Source of the DNA: Halobiforma lacisalsi AJ5
Lineage (GTDB): Archaea; Halobacteriota; Halobacteria; Halobacteriales; Natrialbaceae
Reading direction: 5' to 3'
Length of the DNA stretch: 64,000 nt
NCBI RefSeq assembly: GCF_000226975.2
Contig: NZ_CP019285.1
Span: 3,596,001-3,660,000 of the forward strand
The translations under genes were made by a program, and so were the position numbers. Every line of letters begins with the position of its first letter. The stretch's first letter is position 1. Below are positions 25,977 through 33,541 of this stretch, one piece after another. Under the pieces are notes generated by a model. It saw nothing but the letters and a program-made list of their open reading frames with translations, searched no databases and was not told the DNA's origin.

Positions 25977-26459
25977 TCAGTACGATTCGCCGTCGCGCGC
26001 CCGCTCCATGAACGCTTCGTGAACGTCGACCGATGAGCCATCCGCCGACGTTGTGGCGCGGTGATAGCTCCCGTCGGCCGCCATGCACCACCTGTTTTCC
26101 GTATCCGCGAGCAGCGTTTCGATGATCGTCTCGAGTTGTGACTGTAACTTCGTATCGCGGATGGGTGCCACCGCTTCGACACGGTTGTCGAAGTTTCGCT
26201 CCATCCAGTCGGCCGATCCGACGTAGTAGCGTTCCTCGCCACCCGCGTGGAAGTAGTAGATCCGGGAGTGTTCGAGGAAGCGACCGACGATGCTGTGGAC
26301 GTCGATCGTCTCGCTCACTCCCTCGAGGTTCGGTCGGAGGCGACAGATGTCCCGGACGATCAGGTCGATCTCGACGCCGGCCATCGACGCTTCGTAGAGT
26401 TCTCGGACGAGCGCCGGATCCTCGAGGCGGTTGGCCTCGACCGCACCCGCGCTACTCAT
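25977..26459 (-). pseudogene. ppk1: Polyphosphate kinase (ppk1) C-terminal remnant
   Basis: A 160-codon open frame that aligns only with the last fifth of PPK1, which is normally about 690 residues or longer. Recognisable are LEDPALVRELYEASMAGVEI, DLIVRDICRLRPNLEGVSE, the segment around the second catalytic His (VGRFLEHSRIYYF) and YVGSADWMERNFDNRVE. The N-terminal ATP-binding and first catalytic-His domains are missing. The frame starts at ATG 26459, 8 nt inside the end of the PhoU/AbrB gene, as if a deletion joined the two. A short peptide could still be made but cannot be a working kinase. Loss of the upstream part is seen directly; the cause (deletion) is inferred. Confidence 0.82.
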
Positions 26460-27462
26460 CGATCGTCGACTCCGCCGTCGCTCGAGCGACGTTACCGCCG
26501 ATTTCGGCGGTCCGTTCCAGGCTTCGAAGGACGGTCCCGTAGAGGAATGCGTCGGAGCCGCCCCGGTCGTACAACCGGCGATCGAGCTCCGAAATCGATC
26601 GCCTGACCTCGGATCGGGCCGAAAGCGCCGGTTCGATCTCGTCGGCCAGGGCCAGTTCGACCACCCGTCGCGCGTCGCCGCCAATCGTCTCGAGGCGATC
26701 GGCCAGCTCCGCTTCGGGCGGCGACGATTGCCGGGCCGGGACCTCCGCGATCCGTTCGGCGTGGTCCGCGACCCGTTCGAGTTGACGGGCGATGCGGTAC
26801 TGTCGGAAGGCCGCGGTACGATCCGTGCCGAGGCGATCGATTTCGTGGACGTCCTCGAGTCCGCGGTGGAAGCCCCGGCTCACGAACGCGAAGAGGCGGT
26901 CGACGTCGTCGTCGCGGCCGATCACCCGTCGGGCGAGGTCCTCGTCGTCGTCTCGAACGGCGCGGACGGCATCCTCGTGCATCTCGAGGGCGAGCTGGCG
27001 GGCCTGGGCGACGGTCTGGGGGAGCGACACCTCGCCGACGTCGAGTACGCTCGTCGCCGTGAGCGCGTCGGCCGCGACCGTTTCGATCTCCATCCCGACC
27101 AGCCGACCGATCGCCCGTTCCAGGGTACGACGCGCGTCCGGCTCGAGCGCGTCCGCGTTCTCGACAGTGATCCGGTCGTAGCCGGCCAGGTAGGCCGCAC
27201 GTGCACGCTGGAGGACCGATTCGTCGTCGATCGGTTCGGCGTCGATGGCGACGCTCCGGTCCCGGCAGGAGACGGTTCCCGCTGCGGCTACGAGCCGGTC
27301 CTCGAGCGGGTAGAGGAACATCGAACTGCCGGACTCGAGGCCCTGTTCGGTGGCCCACTCCTTCGGCAACGAAACCACGAACGTCGAGTTGCCGGCGATC
27401 TGTACTTTCCGCTCGACGGGGGTTCGGACGTCGTCGGTGTCCGGGGTTCGGTTCGCGCTCAT
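26452..27462 (-). CDS. AbrB/SpoVT-like N-terminal domain plus PhoU domain regulator
   Basis: 336-residue haloarchaeal phosphate regulator. The N-terminal ~50 residues form a swapped-hairpin AbrB-like DNA-binding domain (RKVQIAGNSTFVVSLPKEWATEQGL), followed by PhoU helices with the metal-binding-like motifs RDDDVDR and RQLERVADHAERIAE. Such proteins probably sense PstSCAB activity and act directly on DNA, bypassing PhoR/PhoB, which archaea lack; this is inference. It is one of three PhoU proteins in this locus. It starts 3 nt after the plain PhoU stop and so lies in the pst operon. Confidence 0.9.
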   Translation of the reverse strand: MSANRTPDTDDVRTPVERKVQIAGNSTFVVSLPKEWATEQGLESGSSMFLYPLEDRLVAAAGTVSCRDRSVAIDAEPIDDESVLQRARAAYLAGYDRITVENADALEPDARRTLERAIGRLVGMEIETVAADALTATSVLDVGEVSLPQTVAQARQLALEMHEDAVRAVRDDDEDLARRVIGRDDDVDRLFAFVSRGFHRGLEDVHEIDRLGTDRTAAFRQYRIARQLERVADHAERIAEVPARQSSPPEAELADRLETIGGDARRVVELALADEIEPALSARSEVRRSISELDRRLYDRGGSDAFLYGTVLRSLERTAEIGGNVARATAESTIDE

Positions 27463-27465
27463 CGA

Positions 27466-28257
27466 TCAGAAGATCAGTTCGTCGTCGTTTTCGACCATGT
27501 ACAGCGTCCGTGCGGCGATGTTGACTGCGTGGTCGCCGACCCGCTCGAGGTCGCGGATCGTCAGCAGGAGCCGTTCGACGTCCTCAAGGAGAATCTCGTC
27601 GGGCGTGATGTCGGTGCGGGTTTCGGCGGTATCGATGTCGGTATCGTCCGTGTATGCGTACGCGCTTCCATCGTCGTCGGCATCGGCAGCGGTTCCCGAT
27701 GTGGTTCCCAACTCGGTCCCGGCTCCGGTCCCAGTCTCGAGGAGATCACGAACGATCGCTTCGCTCGCCCGCTCGCAGAGGGTGTCGATCTCCTCGTCCG
27801 CGGCCGCGACGTCGTAGGTGGCGTTCGCGTCGTCGTCTGCGTACGCTCGCACCGCCGCCTCGACCATCTCGACCGTGCGCTCGCCGATGTGCTGGACGTC
27901 GATCTGGGGGTACCGATCGTGGCTCGTTCCGCCGGCGGAACCGGCGTATCCCGCGACGTTCGTCGCCAGGTCGCCGATCCGCTCGAGATCGGTGATGATC
28001 TTGAACGACGCGGCGATAAAGCGGAGATCGCCCGCGACCGGCTGCTGGAGCGCGAACAACTCGATGCAGTCGCCCTCGAGATCGAGGTACAGTTCGTTGA
28101 TCTCGTCGTCGCCCTCGATCACCTCCCGGGCGAGTTCGTCGTCGTTTCGCTCGCGGGCCTCCAGGGCGGTCCGGAGGCGGGCACACACGAGGTCGCTCAT
28201 CTCGACTACGTTCGCACGGAGCCGTTCGAGTCGTCGCTGGTACTCCTCTCGTGACAT
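27466..28257 (-). CDS. phoU: Phosphate signalling complex protein PhoU
   Basis: 263-residue PhoU with two three-helix bundles; metal-binding-like motifs GDDEINELYLDLE and IITDLERIGDLATNVA, and a second set DLERVGDHAVNIAART. Between the bundles is an acidic low-complexity insert (about 173-213) absent from shorter PhoU proteins. PhoU negatively controls phosphate uptake by contacting PstB and sensor proteins. Here its usual partner PstB is only a remnant two nucleotides upstream, so its regulatory role is uncertain. Confidence 0.92.
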   Translation of the reverse strand: MSREEYQRRLERLRANVVEMSDLVCARLRTALEARERNDDELAREVIEGDDEINELYLDLEGDCIELFALQQPVAGDLRFIAASFKIITDLERIGDLATNVAGYAGSAGGTSHDRYPQIDVQHIGERTVEMVEAAVRAYADDDANATYDVAAADEEIDTLCERASEAIVRDLLETGTGAGTELGTTSGTAADADDDGSAYAYTDDTDIDTAETRTDITPDEILLEDVERLLLTIRDLERVGDHAVNIAARTLYMVENDDELIF

Positions 28258-28259
28258 AG

Positions 28260-28390
28260 TTAGCCGAATTTGCTGGTGATGTCGTCCTCGACGCGGTGTT
28301 CGTTCTCGAAGGTCCCGTCCGTCTCGTCGAACTCGACGAGACGACCGCCGTGAGGAAGACGGCCGTCCCGTCCGGGATGTGTGCGACCTC
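28260..28390 (-). pseudogene. pstB: pstB remnant: C-terminal end of phosphate ABC ATPase with frameshift
   Basis: About 43 codons match only the C-terminus of PstB. Reading leftward on the minus strand from the pstA stop, one frame gives VAHIPDGTAVFLT, like the AARISD-TAVFLT of PstB. The next frame gives GGRLVEFDETDGTFENEH, then RVEDDITSKFG and a stop. A single missing G restores one frame, so the remnant carries a 1-nt deletion. The Walker A, Walker B and signature regions (~210 residues) are absent. The remnant abuts the pstA stop and lies 2 nt before phoU, exactly where pstB belongs in the operon. The small ORF extending upstream over pstA is coincidental. Confidence 0.85.
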
Positions 28391-30034
28391 TCATCGGCGT
28401 TCGAACCTGTCGCGCAGTACGATCGCCGCGGCGTTCATCCCGAGTAACACGACGAGCAGTGTCACGACACCGGCTGCGACGACCCCGTATCTGAACTCCG
28501 GCTGGACGCTCCCTCGCCACGCGTAGATCTGCAACGGCATCGCGGTGACAGTCGAGAACAGCGATTCGGGTGGACTCGAGACGGATGTCGCCGCACCGAT
28601 CATGATCAGCGGTGCGGTTTCGCCGATCGCTCGGCCGAGCGCGAGGATCGTCCCTGTGAGAATGCCGGGGAACGCTTCAGGGAGGACGACGTTGCGAGTC
28701 GTTTGCCAGCGGCTCGCTCCCATTCCGTAGGAGGCACGTCGTACCGACTTCGGAACCGATCTGATCGCTTCCTGAGCAGAGATGATGACGATCGGCAGGA
28801 CCAGCAATCCGACGGTCAGACCGGCCGTTAAGACCGTTCCGAGTCCGAGACCCAGATCGATGGAAACCGACCCAGCCTCGAGGGTAACTCCTCGGGCGAA
28901 AACTGCCAGTCCGAGCAACCCGTAAACGACCGATGGAACGCCAGCAAGGTTCGAGAGATTGACCTGAATCAGTTGTGTGAGGCGATTGTCGCCCGCGTAC
29001 TCCTCGAGGTAGATCGCTGCGCCGACGCCGAGCGGGAAGACTGCAACGATCATCACGCCAAGCATGAAGACCGAACCGATGATCGGCGGATACAGTCCGG
29101 ATCGCTCGGGGAGACGGGACGGTCCTTGCTGGAAGAATGCCGAGCGGACCCAGGGATCCGGCGAACTGCTACCCAGAAGGTCGGGCAGGAACACAGCAAG
29201 GAGAACGCTGCCTGCGATGACGACCGGTGCGCCGAGTCCAAGCCGGGCCGTCGACGATTCGGCTATCGTTTCCCGCTGGCCGGTCAGTACGATCACGGCA
29301 GGAATCGACAGCCCACCGAGGAAGACGATCGCCAGGTCACCAGCAACGAGTACCCCGATTTCGACGAGACCCCCGACGAGAAGACTACCGCCGACGACAC
29401 CAGCGGCGGCTAGTTCTCCGATTCGACTTCGGCCCTCGCGGGAGACTGACCACTGCCGTAACGCGAGCGCGGTCGGACCTGCGAACGTCAAGAAGTACAA
29501 CAGCCAGGGTTTGATGAGCGCGAGGACCCCGGTCAGCGGAGCACGGGCGACCGAGGCGACGAGGGCCCCGACGACGGCGACGCCGAGCGCCCATCTGTGT
29601 GCGTCGGATACCTGCTCGATTCGGTCACCGTAGACGAGGAGGGCACCTGCAGGGAAGATCGCCAGCAGGAAGTATGCCGCCCATATCTGGGGTGAAACGA
29701 TGATGGACACGACGACGAGGAAGAGCCCGAATCCGACGCTCAGCAACAGTCCTCCCGTCGTCGTCTTCGCGACGTCGATCGCAGGCGTTCCGCGAATTCG
29801 CCACCAGTACGCTGTGATCGGAGCCCCGATCGAGAGTACGAACACCGCGTACCATTCCGTGCTCGCCTCGGCTAGCTGGAAGGCGTCGATCGTGACGTAC
29901 GTGAGTAACACGAGGAGAGTCACGATACCGAAAAGCGCTGCGGAGAGGCAGGCGTACTTGAACGCGCTTCCCTTGATGCGAGCGGCGACGTTCGACGCAC
30001 CGGCCCAGTCGTGGCGCTCGGTTTCAGTACTCAT
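28391..30034 (-). CDS. pstA: Phosphate ABC transporter permease PstA
   Basis: 547-residue inner-membrane permease of the Pst phosphate importer. The haloarchaeal form has an N-terminal extension of several hydrophobic segments (about 1-270) before the conserved permease domain. Typical motifs are GLYPPIIGSVFMLGVMI, FPLGVGAAIYLEEYA, NLAGVPSVVYGLLGL, and EAIRSVPKSVRRASYGMGAS with the ATPase-contact loop, then GRAIGETAPLIMIG. The ATG at 30034 is preferred to a GTG at 30043. The operon is pstS-pstC-pstA, but the expected pstB after it is destroyed, so transport by this copy alone is not expected. Confidence 0.93.
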   Translation of the reverse strand: MSTETERHDWAGASNVAARIKGSAFKYACLSAALFGIVTLLVLLTYVTIDAFQLAEASTEWYAVFVLSIGAPITAYWWRIRGTPAIDVAKTTTGGLLLSVGFGLFLVVVSIIVSPQIWAAYFLLAIFPAGALLVYGDRIEQVSDAHRWALGVAVVGALVASVARAPLTGVLALIKPWLLYFLTFAGPTALALRQWSVSREGRSRIGELAAAGVVGGSLLVGGLVEIGVLVAGDLAIVFLGGLSIPAVIVLTGQRETIAESSTARLGLGAPVVIAGSVLLAVFLPDLLGSSSPDPWVRSAFFQQGPSRLPERSGLYPPIIGSVFMLGVMIVAVFPLGVGAAIYLEEYAGDNRLTQLIQVNLSNLAGVPSVVYGLLGLAVFARGVTLEAGSVSIDLGLGLGTVLTAGLTVGLLVLPIVIISAQEAIRSVPKSVRRASYGMGASRWQTTRNVVLPEAFPGILTGTILALGRAIGETAPLIMIGAATSVSSPPESLFSTVTAMPLQIYAWRGSVQPEFRYGVVAAGVVTLLVVLLGMNAAAIVLRDRFERR

Positions 30035-30082
30035 CAAACTCACCTCGACGGTCGTCGGATAGTTGGTCTGGTCGTCGTTGCA

Positions 30083-31051
30083 TCAGTACACCTCCCTGTA
30101 CCGTCGTTTGACGTACTCTGCCACCAGATTCATCGTGAACGTGAACGCAAACAGCGCCAGACCGAGGGCAAACATCGACCAGTAGACCGGCGTGCCACCG
30201 ACGACGTCGGAGCCAGCGGCCTGGACCATCGCTGCCGTGATCGTCTGAATCGAGTCGTAGAGGTTCTCGTGGATACTCGTCGGCTCGAGGATCAACATCT
30301 GCGGGTTCTGTCCGGCCGCCATCGTCACGATCATCGTCTCGCCGATCGCTCGCGAAATCGCGAGGATGAACGACGAGAAGATCCCCGACAGCGCCGCCGG
30401 AACCACGACCCGCGTGGAGACGTCGAACTTCGTCGCGCCCAGCCCGTATCCGGCCTGTCTGAGTTCGTCCGGGACGGAACTCAGGGCGTCCTCGCTGATC
30501 GAGGAGACCATCGGAATGATCATGATTCCGACCATGATCGACGCCGACATCGCGTTGAACGTGCTCAGCGGCAAGATCTTCTGGAGCCACGGCGTGATGT
30601 ACACCAGCGCGAAGTAGCCGTAGACGACCGTCGGAACGCCCGCGAGAATCTCGAGGGCGGGTTTGAGGTACGCTCGCGTTCGTTCGGTCGCATACTCGCT
30701 GATATAGATCGCGGCCCCCAGCCCGCAGGGAAGCGCGACTGCAGCGGAGGCGACGGTGACGACGATCGTTCCGCTCAACAGCGGCAACAGACCGTACCGG
30801 TACGGCTGAATCGTCGGCCGCCAGTTCGTCCCGAACAGGAAGTCACGAATCGCGTTCGTCCAGGACGTCTCGAGCACGCCCGCGTACTGGTCAACGAAGT
30901 AGATGGCGTCCGAGAAGAGGCTGTAGATGATACCGACGGTGATCAACACCGTCAGCGTCATACAGCCGAACAGGACGTACTCGTAGAGCCGTTCACGTCT
31001 CACCGTCTCGGCCGGGCGTTGCCACTCCGACTCGATAGTATCGCTACTCAC
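30083..31051 (-). CDS. pstC: Phosphate ABC transporter permease PstC
   Basis: 322-residue membrane permease partner of PstA, starting at GTG. Six hydrophobic segments are visible; conserved features include LLPLLSGTIVVTVAS, LPCGLGAAIYISEYA, LAGVPTVVYGYFALVYITP, and the ATPase-contact region EDALSSVPDELRQAGYGLGATKFD, followed by RAIGETMIVTMAAGQNP. It sits 49 nt upstream of pstA and 64 nt downstream of pstS in the same direction. Intact, unlike its ATPase. Confidence 0.94.
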   Translation of the reverse strand: MSSDTIESEWQRPAETVRRERLYEYVLFGCMTLTVLITVGIIYSLFSDAIYFVDQYAGVLETSWTNAIRDFLFGTNWRPTIQPYRYGLLPLLSGTIVVTVASAAVALPCGLGAAIYISEYATERTRAYLKPALEILAGVPTVVYGYFALVYITPWLQKILPLSTFNAMSASIMVGIMIIPMVSSISEDALSSVPDELRQAGYGLGATKFDVSTRVVVPAALSGIFSSFILAISRAIGETMIVTMAAGQNPQMLILEPTSIHENLYDSIQTITAAMVQAAGSDVVGGTPVYWSMFALGLALFAFTFTMNLVAEYVKRRYREVY

Positions 31052-31115
31052 AATAACTCACCACCATCTGCGTTTGCGGTTCGATCATTGGTAGAAGACG
31101 GATCGGCAGTTTAGT

Positions 31116-32162
31116 TCAGTTCATCGAGGGGATCGCCTCGTCTTCACTGAGATCCCCGTCGATGGCAGCCTCGAGTCGATCGAGGTTCTCTTGAACCTCC
31201 TGATCGTTCATCGCAACGTAGCCGATGTCCTCCGAGACGATACTCCGGTCGCCGCTCAGTTCGATCGCGAACCGCATGAACTCCTGGAGCGCCTCGTTCT
31301 CCTGTAGTTTCTGCTGGTTGACATACCAGAAGATCGGACGTGCGAGCGGATACGATCCCTCGGAGGCCGCCTCGAGGCTCGGCGCGGTACAGCCGTCGCC
31401 GGCGTCGATCTCGAGGGCTTTGACGCTGTCGGGGTTGTTGTCGTAGTACGCGTACGGAAGGTAGCCGTGGGCGTACTCGTTCCCGGCGACACCCTGGGCG
31501 ATCTCATCGTCTTCCTCGGTGCCGTCGAAGTCCTCGCGGATGACCCGGAGCTCGCCGACGACCTCTTCGGTCCAGTAGTCGAAGGTTCCTGACGTCGTTG
31601 CCGCACCGAACAGTTCGATCTCCTCGTCGGGCCAGTCGGAGTTGATGTCGGCCCACGTCTCGGGAGCGCTGTCGGGATGCCAGATCTCGCTGAGCTGGTC
31701 CAGATCCGCACAGTCGAGCCAGTCGTTGTCGTTGTTGACGACGGCCGTCAGCGCGTCACCAGCACACTGGAACTCGACCGGCTGGAAACCGGTATCGCTC
31801 GCTTCCTGGATTTCTTCTTCCATAATCGGGCGGCTCGCACCGTTGATGTCGCTGTCTCCGGGCAAGAAGAAGTTCTCGAACCCGCCCGTACTCCCATCGC
31901 TGGACAGTTCGTAATCGAACCCGTCCTGTTCACGGGCGAACTCTTCGCCGGCCGCTTCGGACACCGGATAAACGGTACTGCTACCCGAAATTCGGATAGT
32001 TCCGGAAACGCTGTTACCGCTGCCACTGTCACTACCGGTTTCCCCGCTCGTTCCCTCCTCCTCGGTACACCCTGCAAGTGCGACGGCCCCCGCGCCACCG
32101 GCCACCGAAATGAATCGTCGTCGCGATACACCGATACCGGACTGGGACGTGTCGTCCGTCAT
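31116..32162 (-). CDS. pstS: Phosphate-binding lipoprotein PstS
   Basis: 348-residue phosphate-binding protein. The Tat/lipobox signal SRRRFISVAGGAGAVALAGC places the lipid-anchored Cys near residue 32, followed by a Ser/Gly/Asp linker. Binding-site motifs seen are ISGSSTVYPVSEAAG, SSDGSTGGF and FGAATTSGTFDYW. It captures phosphate outside the cell and delivers it to PstCA. The ATG at 32162 is favoured over the GTG at 32165. A TATA-like CTTTATA (minus strand, 32186-32192) is about 24-30 nt before it, as expected for a leaderless transcript. Confidence 0.94.
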   Translation of the reverse strand: MTDDTSQSGIGVSRRRFISVAGGAGAVALAGCTEEEGTSGETGSDSGSGNSVSGTIRISGSSTVYPVSEAAGEEFAREQDGFDYELSSDGSTGGFENFFLPGDSDINGASRPIMEEEIQEASDTGFQPVEFQCAGDALTAVVNNDNDWLDCADLDQLSEIWHPDSAPETWADINSDWPDEEIELFGAATTSGTFDYWTEEVVGELRVIREDFDGTEEDDEIAQGVAGNEYAHGYLPYAYYDNNPDSVKALEIDAGDGCTAPSLEAASEGSYPLARPIFWYVNQQKLQENEALQEFMRFAIELSGDRSIVSEDIGYVAMNDQEVQENLDRLEAAIDGDLSEDEAIPSMN

Positions 32163-32545
32163 CACCTGAGAGCAATCAGGACACGTATAAAGAGGATTCT
32201 AATATCTATATACTCAACCAGATACGCCAATAGAGTACTATTTTCGGCAACGTAGATATCGGTATTACGACCGATCGATCGGCCTCCACTGCTGACCCGT
32301 CGTTCGAAGGGAGACGACTGATTTGAGGGGTCTTTCACCCATCGATATTCCGGGTCTGCGTAACGCGGTCAGCAATTGACGTCTCGTATAGGGCAATACC
32401 TTCACCGATATATTAATATATAGTACTATATATTGGTATGATTCGCACGTTCGAAAACGGACAACGCTCGGGATAAATACGGGGTAAATGGATTTACTCA
32501 ATAGATTCGAAGGGATTTATATCCCCCCTGACGAAACGTTCCGCT
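32163..32545. promoter_or_regulatory. Divergent pstS/phoU intergenic region
   Basis: 383 nt without a gene. On the minus strand it has the pstS TATA-like CTTTATA (32186-32192) and AT-rich bases; on the plus strand several AT-rich stretches precede the third phoU. A 20-bp palindrome sits at 32415-32434. The remainder is AT-rich compared with the genome, as expected for a regulatory region. Confidence 0.6.
32415..32434. promoter_or_regulatory. Perfect 20-bp palindrome AATATATAGTACTATATATT
   Basis: All 20 bases are self-complementary. It lies 112 nt upstream of the plus-strand phoU and 253 nt upstream of pstS. It overlaps the TATATATT expected of a TATA box, so binding would block the promoter. 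It is a candidate operator for a phosphate-responsive regulator such as the PhoU/AbrB proteins encoded next door. Confidence 0.5.
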
Positions 32546-33541
32546 ATGGAGACTCGTAAGGTCCAGGTGACCGGGGGGTCGACGTACACGGTCTCGCTGC
32601 CGAAGGAATGGGCAACGGAAAACAGCGTCTCGAGCGGCGATACCGTCGAGATCTACTCCGAGGACGATACGCTGCTGGTCACGCCGCGGAGCGACGCCGA
32701 CCATCAGGAAGGGACGCTCGACGTCTCGACGCTCGAGGGCGAGCGCCTCACCCGGGCCGTGCTCACGATGTACGTCAGCGGCTTCGACGTGATCCGACTC
32801 GAAGCCGGCCGGATCACGACGGAACAGCGGCGGGCGATCCGGTCGGCGATCCAGGGGCTGATCGGCGTCGAGGTCGTCGAGGAGACGACCGACGGCGTCG
32901 TCATTCAGGACCTGCTCGATTCCTCGGAGCTGTCGATCGTCAACGCCGTCACGCGAATGCGCCTGATCGCGACGTCGATGCTCGAGGACGCGGTGACGGC
33001 GCTGGTCGAGAACGACGACGACATCGCTCACGACGTCATCGAACGCGACGACGACGTCGACCGACTCTGGCTCGTCGTCTCGCGGATCTTCCGCGCGACG
33101 CTGCGCTCGCCCGGGGCGGCGGAGGAACTCGGCGTCTCCCGCGAGGACTGTTTCGACTTCCACTCCAGCGCCCGCCAACTCGAGCGCGTCGCCGACCACG
33201 CCGTCAAGATCAGCCAGCTCGCGCTCAAACTCGAGGAGATCCCCGAGGACGTCGCGGACGCGTTGCTCGAACTCCACGCGGACGCCTCGGACATCCTCGA
33301 GAAGTCGATGGACGCGTTGTTCGCCGAGGAGAGCGGTGAGGCGACCGAACTGGGCCACGACGCGCTCGAGTCGGTTCTGAGCATCGACGAACACACGCGC
33401 CACATCGACGACATGCTCCGCGAACAGGAGTCAGTCCAGGCCCAGTCGCTCGGGCTGATCCTCGATTCGCTCTCCCGAAGCGCCGACTACGGCGGGAACG
33501 TCGCCGAGACGGCCCTGCAGAAGGCGGCACCCAGCCCGTAG
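32546..33541 (+). CDS. PhoU-domain regulator with AbrB/SpoVT-like domain
   Basis: 331-residue paralogue of the 26452-27462 protein. METRKVQVTGGSTYTVSLPKEWATENSV is the AbrB-like DNA-binding hairpin, followed by PhoU helices with RDDDVDRLWLVVSR and SARQLERVADHAVKISQLALKLEEIPED. It is transcribed divergently from the pst operon, so it could control the shared regulatory region. The haloarchaeal family is thought to regulate phosphate genes; this is family knowledge, not evidence from here. Confidence 0.9.
   Translation: METRKVQVTGGSTYTVSLPKEWATENSVSSGDTVEIYSEDDTLLVTPRSDADHQEGTLDVSTLEGERLTRAVLTMYVSGFDVIRLEAGRITTEQRRAIRSAIQGLIGVEVVEETTDGVVIQDLLDSSELSIVNAVTRMRLIATSMLEDAVTALVENDDDIAHDVIERDDDVDRLWLVVSRIFRATLRSPGAAEELGVSREDCFDFHSSARQLERVADHAVKISQLALKLEEIPEDVADALLELHADASDILEKSMDALFAEESGEATELGHDALESVLSIDEHTRHIDDMLREQESVQAQSLGLILDSLSRSADYGGNVAETALQKAAPSP

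Follow-up and report, generated by a model that had tools for sequence, protein, structure and literature searches.

A pstB pseudogene in a divergent pst operon of Halobiforma lacisalsi and recurrent loss of cis-encoded pstB in related haloarchaea: a phosphate importer probably powered in trans

The window, that is, the whole stretch of 64,000 nucleotides of Halobiforma lacisalsi AJ5 that was analysed (contig NZ_CP019285.1, positions 3,596,001 to 3,660,000), carries on its minus strand an operon for a Pst phosphate importer (Table 1). A sequence-only reading of this DNA had described pstB as a frameshifted C-terminal scrap in front of phoU, pstS, pstC and pstA as intact, and ppk1 as truncated at the other end of the operon. 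These descriptions held: about 43 codons of pstB with a 1-nt deletion are seen on the minus strand, PstS, PstC and PstA each score over their curated NCBIfam cut-offs within one operon, and ppk1 is reduced to a 160-aa remnant, with no other ppk1 match in the genome. The only pstB in this operon is the pseudogene.

Table 1. Features of the pst locus in the window and intact pstB genes elsewhere in the genome
Feature	Position	Strand	Remarks
ppk1 C-terminal remnant, 160 aa, joined to short new start	25977..26459	-	matches positions 516-672 of 673
Second PhoU-domain regulator	26452..27462	-	syntenic flank; 93% aa identity to congener
phoU, intact	27466..28257	-	TIGR02135, 170.5 bits (cut-off 130.25); putative allele breakpoint near 27540-27600
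Putative allele-swap block spanning mature pstS to phoU	27600..32064	-	GC 0.621 vs flanks 0.659 and 0.679
pstB pseudogene	28260..28390	-	C-terminal ~43 codons; deletions of 1 nt at 28350/28351 and 6 nt at 28301/28302
pstA, long form, 550 aa, intact	28391..30043	-	TIGR00974, 216.5 bits (cut-off 193.45); stop directly before scrap
pstC, 322 aa, intact	30083..31051	-	TIGR02138, 253.5 bits (cut-off 196.45)
pstS, 349 aa, intact	31116..32165	-	TIGR02136, 222.3 bits (cut-off 206.6); putative allele breakpoint in signal-peptide part near 32065
Divergent AbrB-like + PhoU-domain regulator, upstream of pstS	32546..33541	+	syntenic flank; 98% aa identity to congener
pstB, intact	C1:2585824-2586696		TIGR00972 over cut-off, no internal stops
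pstB, intact	C1:2581756-2582562		TIGR00972 over cut-off, no internal stops

Read on the minus strand, the scrap adjoins the pstA stop codon TGA (28393-28391) and starts with 13 codons, EVAHIPDGTAVFL (28390-28352). After the 1-nt deletion, GGRLVEFDETDGTFEN continues for 16 codons in another frame, and past the 6-nt deletion EHRVEDDITSKFG runs for 13 codons to a TAA (28262-28260) located 2 bases upstream of the phoU ATG. Over ~125 nt the scrap is 80-84% identical in nucleotides to the intact pstB of its own genome and of a congener, and its homology to pstB is far above chance. With ~43 C-terminal codons in two frames it lacks the full ATPase domain and falls outside the PstB family (TIGR00972); its locus is absent from the 75 genome matches to that profile. 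We also compared the scrap with 29 near-invariant columns of the PstB tail, each with a conservation of at least 97% among 58 haloarchaeal PstB. Of the 29, the scrap violated 8, whereas the intact tails, used as a control, had no violation in 53 of the 58 and one in the remaining 5. The 6-nt deletion and these substitutions at conserved sites had not been part of the earlier account. Because 8 of the 29 conserved tail positions differ, the scrap is a decayed pseudogene and not an assembly slip. A deletion presumably reached the pstA stop and took ~85% of pstB from its N-terminal side; the leftover tail then decayed. We also considered that the tail might be kept as a translation signal for phoU, but this found no support, since pstB-less relatives, for instance G062 and G006, have a phoU without a C-terminal tail.

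The other genes of the operon gave a different result in the corresponding leave-one-out test of near-invariant sites, for which 55 PstS, 55 PstC, 54 PstA and 39 PhoU sequences were kept. Violations amounted to 0 of 30 sites in PstS, 1 of 71 in PstC, 0 of 46 in PstA and 0 of 34 in PhoU. By this measure, the permease side appears free of relaxed selection; purifying selection on the permease before the allele swap described below would be an alternative cause of its intact look. PhoU carries an acidic insert of ~40 residues (~27600-27733) at the allele breakpoint, and the congener's PhoU is without this insert.

The locus of congener G001 is syntenic with that of the window, with amino-acid identities of 98% and 93% for the regulators on either side. 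Between them, tblastn of the window against G001 gave identities of 50% for PstS, 53% for PstC, 42% for PstA and 63% for PhoU; a second comparison put PstC at 56% identity, with flanks above 90% in nucleotides. Nucleotide identity to G001 drops from >90% to ~60-75% from ~27540-27600, within phoU, to 32065, within the pstS signal peptide. If the block were resident, it should group with the congener. However, in the PstC tree the window protein groups with Halalkalirubrum (100/99) and G001 with G031 (100/99), with other congeners elsewhere, and in the PstA tree the window protein groups with G069 and G080; a resident block is thus not supported. An operon tree with two added genomes likewise placed the window permease with G069, G080 and Halalkalirubrum. 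The latter has retained pstB; G069 and G080 have a permease of the window type without its own pstB, followed directly by a second, complete pstSCAB. We suggest that a divergent pst allele replaced the resident segment from pstS to phoU through homologous recombination; the pst locus would then be a site of allele swapping, with one breakpoint in phoU and the other in the pstS signal peptide, and the first pst locus a probable hotspot of such swaps. The lower GC content of the window block is suggestive of this block, and not that of G001, being the newcomer; the pst block of G001 also differs from those of other congeners. Among all congeners the first pst locus differs, with PstC at 48-56% identity to that of the window and the flanking regulator 82-98% conserved.

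At the ppk1 end, the chimeric ppk1 ORF starts at the stop codon of the second PhoU-domain regulator. Compared with G001, 2.76 kb are missing at window position 26425-26433. This deletion cost the 5' part of ppk1 and also removed a 230-aa gene present in G001, which resembles a metallophosphoesterase. No other ppk1 and no PPK2 were found in the genome. The gene is patchy in the family, with matches in 7 of 25 genomes (6 over the cut-off), and among the five genomes of the genus a full ppk1 is present only in G001. The truncation lies outside the swapped block and is a separate event. From the two broken genes, recent decay of the phosphate genes had been proposed. Both pstB and ppk1 are indeed broken, but PstS, PstC, PstA and PhoU are without decay, the pst block is best taken as a swapped allele and ppk1 was cut separately by a deletion; a general recent decay was therefore rejected on the retained near-invariant sites of the four proteins.

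Two intact PstB are encoded at a second Pst locus with the gene order pstB1-pstS-pstC-pstA-pstB2; the nearest is ~1.04 Mb from the scrap. They reached 385.4 and 382.7 bits against the TIGR00972 cut-off of 343.2, and Walker A, signature and Walker B motifs are readable in both translations. The genome thus has two PstB and two permease sets. The sequence-only reading had left the transporter unpowered unless a pstB existed elsewhere; such genes do exist, and an unpowered transporter is unlikely. An operon without an ATPase gene together with an intact ATPase of the right family elsewhere is the gene content of a trans-served importer of the PhoT or MsmX type. PstB1 is located upstream of pstS and downstream of no pstA, and such a pstB is called unpaired here. 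The PstB tree places PstB1 in a starred set of 20 rows; 17 of these are apart from pstA, and many have an N-terminal MTAN motif. An unpaired PstB1 is found in congener G001 too, where the operon retains its own pstB; therefore, PstB1 did not arise to serve the pstB-less operon of the window. In their coupling-helix stretches, the window PstA and PstC are similar to their counterparts in the genome's second operon. Intact PstB are mostly 66-86% identical between operons, and PstC of the window operon is 48-66% identical to that of the genus's other operons; PstB is thus more conserved than the permeases it serves.

To place the scrap in the family, 76 related genomes, each at least 95% complete, were surveyed. 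They contain 129 pstA of the window type in 74 genomes. A pstB was found up to 400 nt downstream of pstA in 95 of the 129 and at 0.4-3 kb in 11; none was present within 3 kb in 23, a call that is weaker for G090, whose pstA is 2 kb from a contig end. These 23 pstB-less operons belong to 21 genomes in 11 of the 27 genera, and every one of the 21 genomes has an intact pstB elsewhere. An unpaired pstB is present in 19 of the 21 and, among the matches listed, in 4 of the 53 other genomes (Fisher p = 7.5e-12, genomes counted as independent despite kinship), an association that is partly definitional, because some genomes may owe their unpaired pstB simply to relocation of the operon's own gene. By genus, a hand count gave 10 of 11 versus 3 of 16 (p = 3e-4), the latter again among the matches listed. 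The matches listed comprise 150 pstB and are complete for the 21 genomes with pstB-less operons; 17 of the 150, which belong to a more diverged Pst type, were left out of the unpaired count. All 17 lie directly downstream of the pstA of that type and none is unpaired, so that the more diverged type appears to keep its pstB.

The remaining 2 of the 21 genomes, G078 and G064, have a pstB-less operon but no unpaired pstB; therefore, the pstB of another operon would need to be shared there. In three genomes, G006, G009 and G042, no pstA of the window type has a pstB within 3 kb downstream. In G006, one operon carries a pstB ahead of pstS. The sole permease set of G009 is 471 kb from its only PstB gene, and G042 combines two permease sets with just one PstB over the cut-off, encoded on its own. 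On a tree of 71 operons, from which eight loci had been excluded (three non-haloarchaeal, four on short contigs, one duplicate), the cis-pstB state changed at least 13 times, with 12 changes forced by starred branches; pstB-less operons were collected deliberately for this tree, and their share of 23 in 71 is no frequency. Remnants of pstB are visible at several junctions: G088 has an N-terminal stretch and the last ~16 residues, G076 an 11-residue C-terminal tail, and G078 and G006 have N-terminal pieces, the N-terminal remnants being called by position and reading without a scored match. These data show that cis pstB was lost or detached many times in this haloarchaeal family.

A few other arrangements were seen. 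In G047 and G076 (L129 1212-3939, L130 11711-14444) a stand-alone pstB-phoU pair adjoins a regulator of the AbrB/PhoU type, several kb from a pstB-less pstSCA. The 81% complete genome G031 has a pstSCA (L078 5007-9346) and no pstB at an E value of 1e-70; the ORF after its pstA resembles a low-molecular-weight phosphatase. In G025, a genome 78% complete, pstB (G025:C22:6912-7739) has one in-frame TAA.

How would a pstB-less permease be powered? That a full pstB is really there and was missed by assembly or sequencing has a negligible probability: the scrap, which sits within a 4.16-Mb contig of an assembly that is 99.99% complete, combines two deletions, of 1 and 6 nt, with several conserved-site substitutions, and relatives lost pstB independently at the same pstA junction. 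Because of these several independent lesions and the parallel losses, we rejected an artefact. If instead the operon were dead or dying, with a motorless permease and the second Pst operon doing all the work, the certainly broken pstB, the complete second operon and the loss of ppk1 nearby would all fit. However, PstS, PstC, PstA and PhoU have lost one near-invariant site in all, against 8 of 29 in the scrap, pstB-less operons are spread over 11 of the 27 genera, and in G042, G009 and G006 a dead operon would mean no Pst uptake of the window type at all; we consider this explanation unlikely. Still less probable is that PstSCA-PhoU serves phosphate sensing instead of transport, or that an unrelated ATPase drives it. 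PhoU is retained beside pstA here and in several pstB-less relatives, but in others, such as G069 and G080, pstA is without an adjoining PhoU. The genome does encode a PstB-like ATPase at C1:54181, with 301.8 bits, under the cut-off of 343.2, but this ATPase adjoins two permeases of its own, and the genome also has true PstB proteins, which are much closer to the ATPases that usually accompany these permeases.

With a probability of roughly 0.78, we therefore favor the following reading. The scrap is a true pstB pseudogene, in what is best taken as a swapped, divergent allele. The PstS-PstC-PstA importer would most likely be functional, with the intact PstB of the second Pst operon, either one or both, assembling with the permease and driving it in trans. 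Cis pstB has been lost or detached repeatedly, probably because more than one Pst permease can be driven by a stand-alone PstB. The genomic data are best read as PstB acting in trans, probably as a shared subunit, and one PstB for two permeases is best supported by G042, whose gene content of two permease sets and one PstB over the cut-off would fit a multitask ATPase of the MsmX type. We hold it somewhat less firmly, but still lean towards it, that in this haloarchaeal family several Pst permeases share a stand-alone PstB as a multitask ATPase, which would leave pstSCA(-phoU) modules free to swap between species without a motor gene and to lose pstB repeatedly.

A single scrap of this kind is ordinary; it is the family-wide pattern that merits a second look. 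With their repeated losses of cis pstB, haloarchaea offer natural replicates for asking what would let one ATPase drive several permeases; one genome among them has two permease sets but one PstB. It is also a warning for annotation: an operon without pstB should not be called non-functional.

In the open-licence literature, we found no paper on loss or sharing of pstB in haloarchaea. Haloferax volcanii has two phosphate ABC operons, both important at low phosphate, and a double pst deletion did not grow in synthetic medium (PMC6560208). This is a further haloarchaeon with two Pst operons, but there each operon was treated as a complete unit, and loss of pstB is not among the points described in the available excerpt of that paper. 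PstB1 and PstB2 of E. faecalis are ~60% identical and not equivalent: excess PstB2 compensates for a lack of PstB1, whereas excess PstB1 does not compensate for a lack of PstB2 (PMC12096839). This system also has more than one PstB, with one-way cover; unlike here, both genes are in one complete pst operon, and the abstract mentions no second permease without pstB. Such partial exchangeability is the main published caution against sharing of PstB. A close likeness in gene content is Pst-1 of M. tuberculosis, a pstS-pstC-pstA operon without pstB whose missing subunit would be a PstB-like ATPase encoded elsewhere (PMC11708021, PMC13192937). Deletion of the distant phoT phenocopies deletion of pstA1, and PhoT was proposed as the trans PstB of Pst-1 (PMC11708021). 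The case described here differs in that it is archaeal, that the loss is recurrent with remnants still visible, that the putative trans PstB lies beside a second Pst operon and that G042 has one PstB for two permease sets. MsmX and MsmK are multitask ATPases for several CUT1 sugar importers, and according to a 2020 paper, sharing of ATPases had until then been reported only in CUT1 importers (PMC7658222). Like these, a stand-alone PstB would serve several importers without an ATPase gene of their own, whereas MsmX and MsmK act on bacterial sugar importers and the haloarchaeal phosphate importers are linked to a putatively shared PstB by genome content. If true, ATPase sharing among ABC importers would extend to archaea and to a substrate other than sugar.
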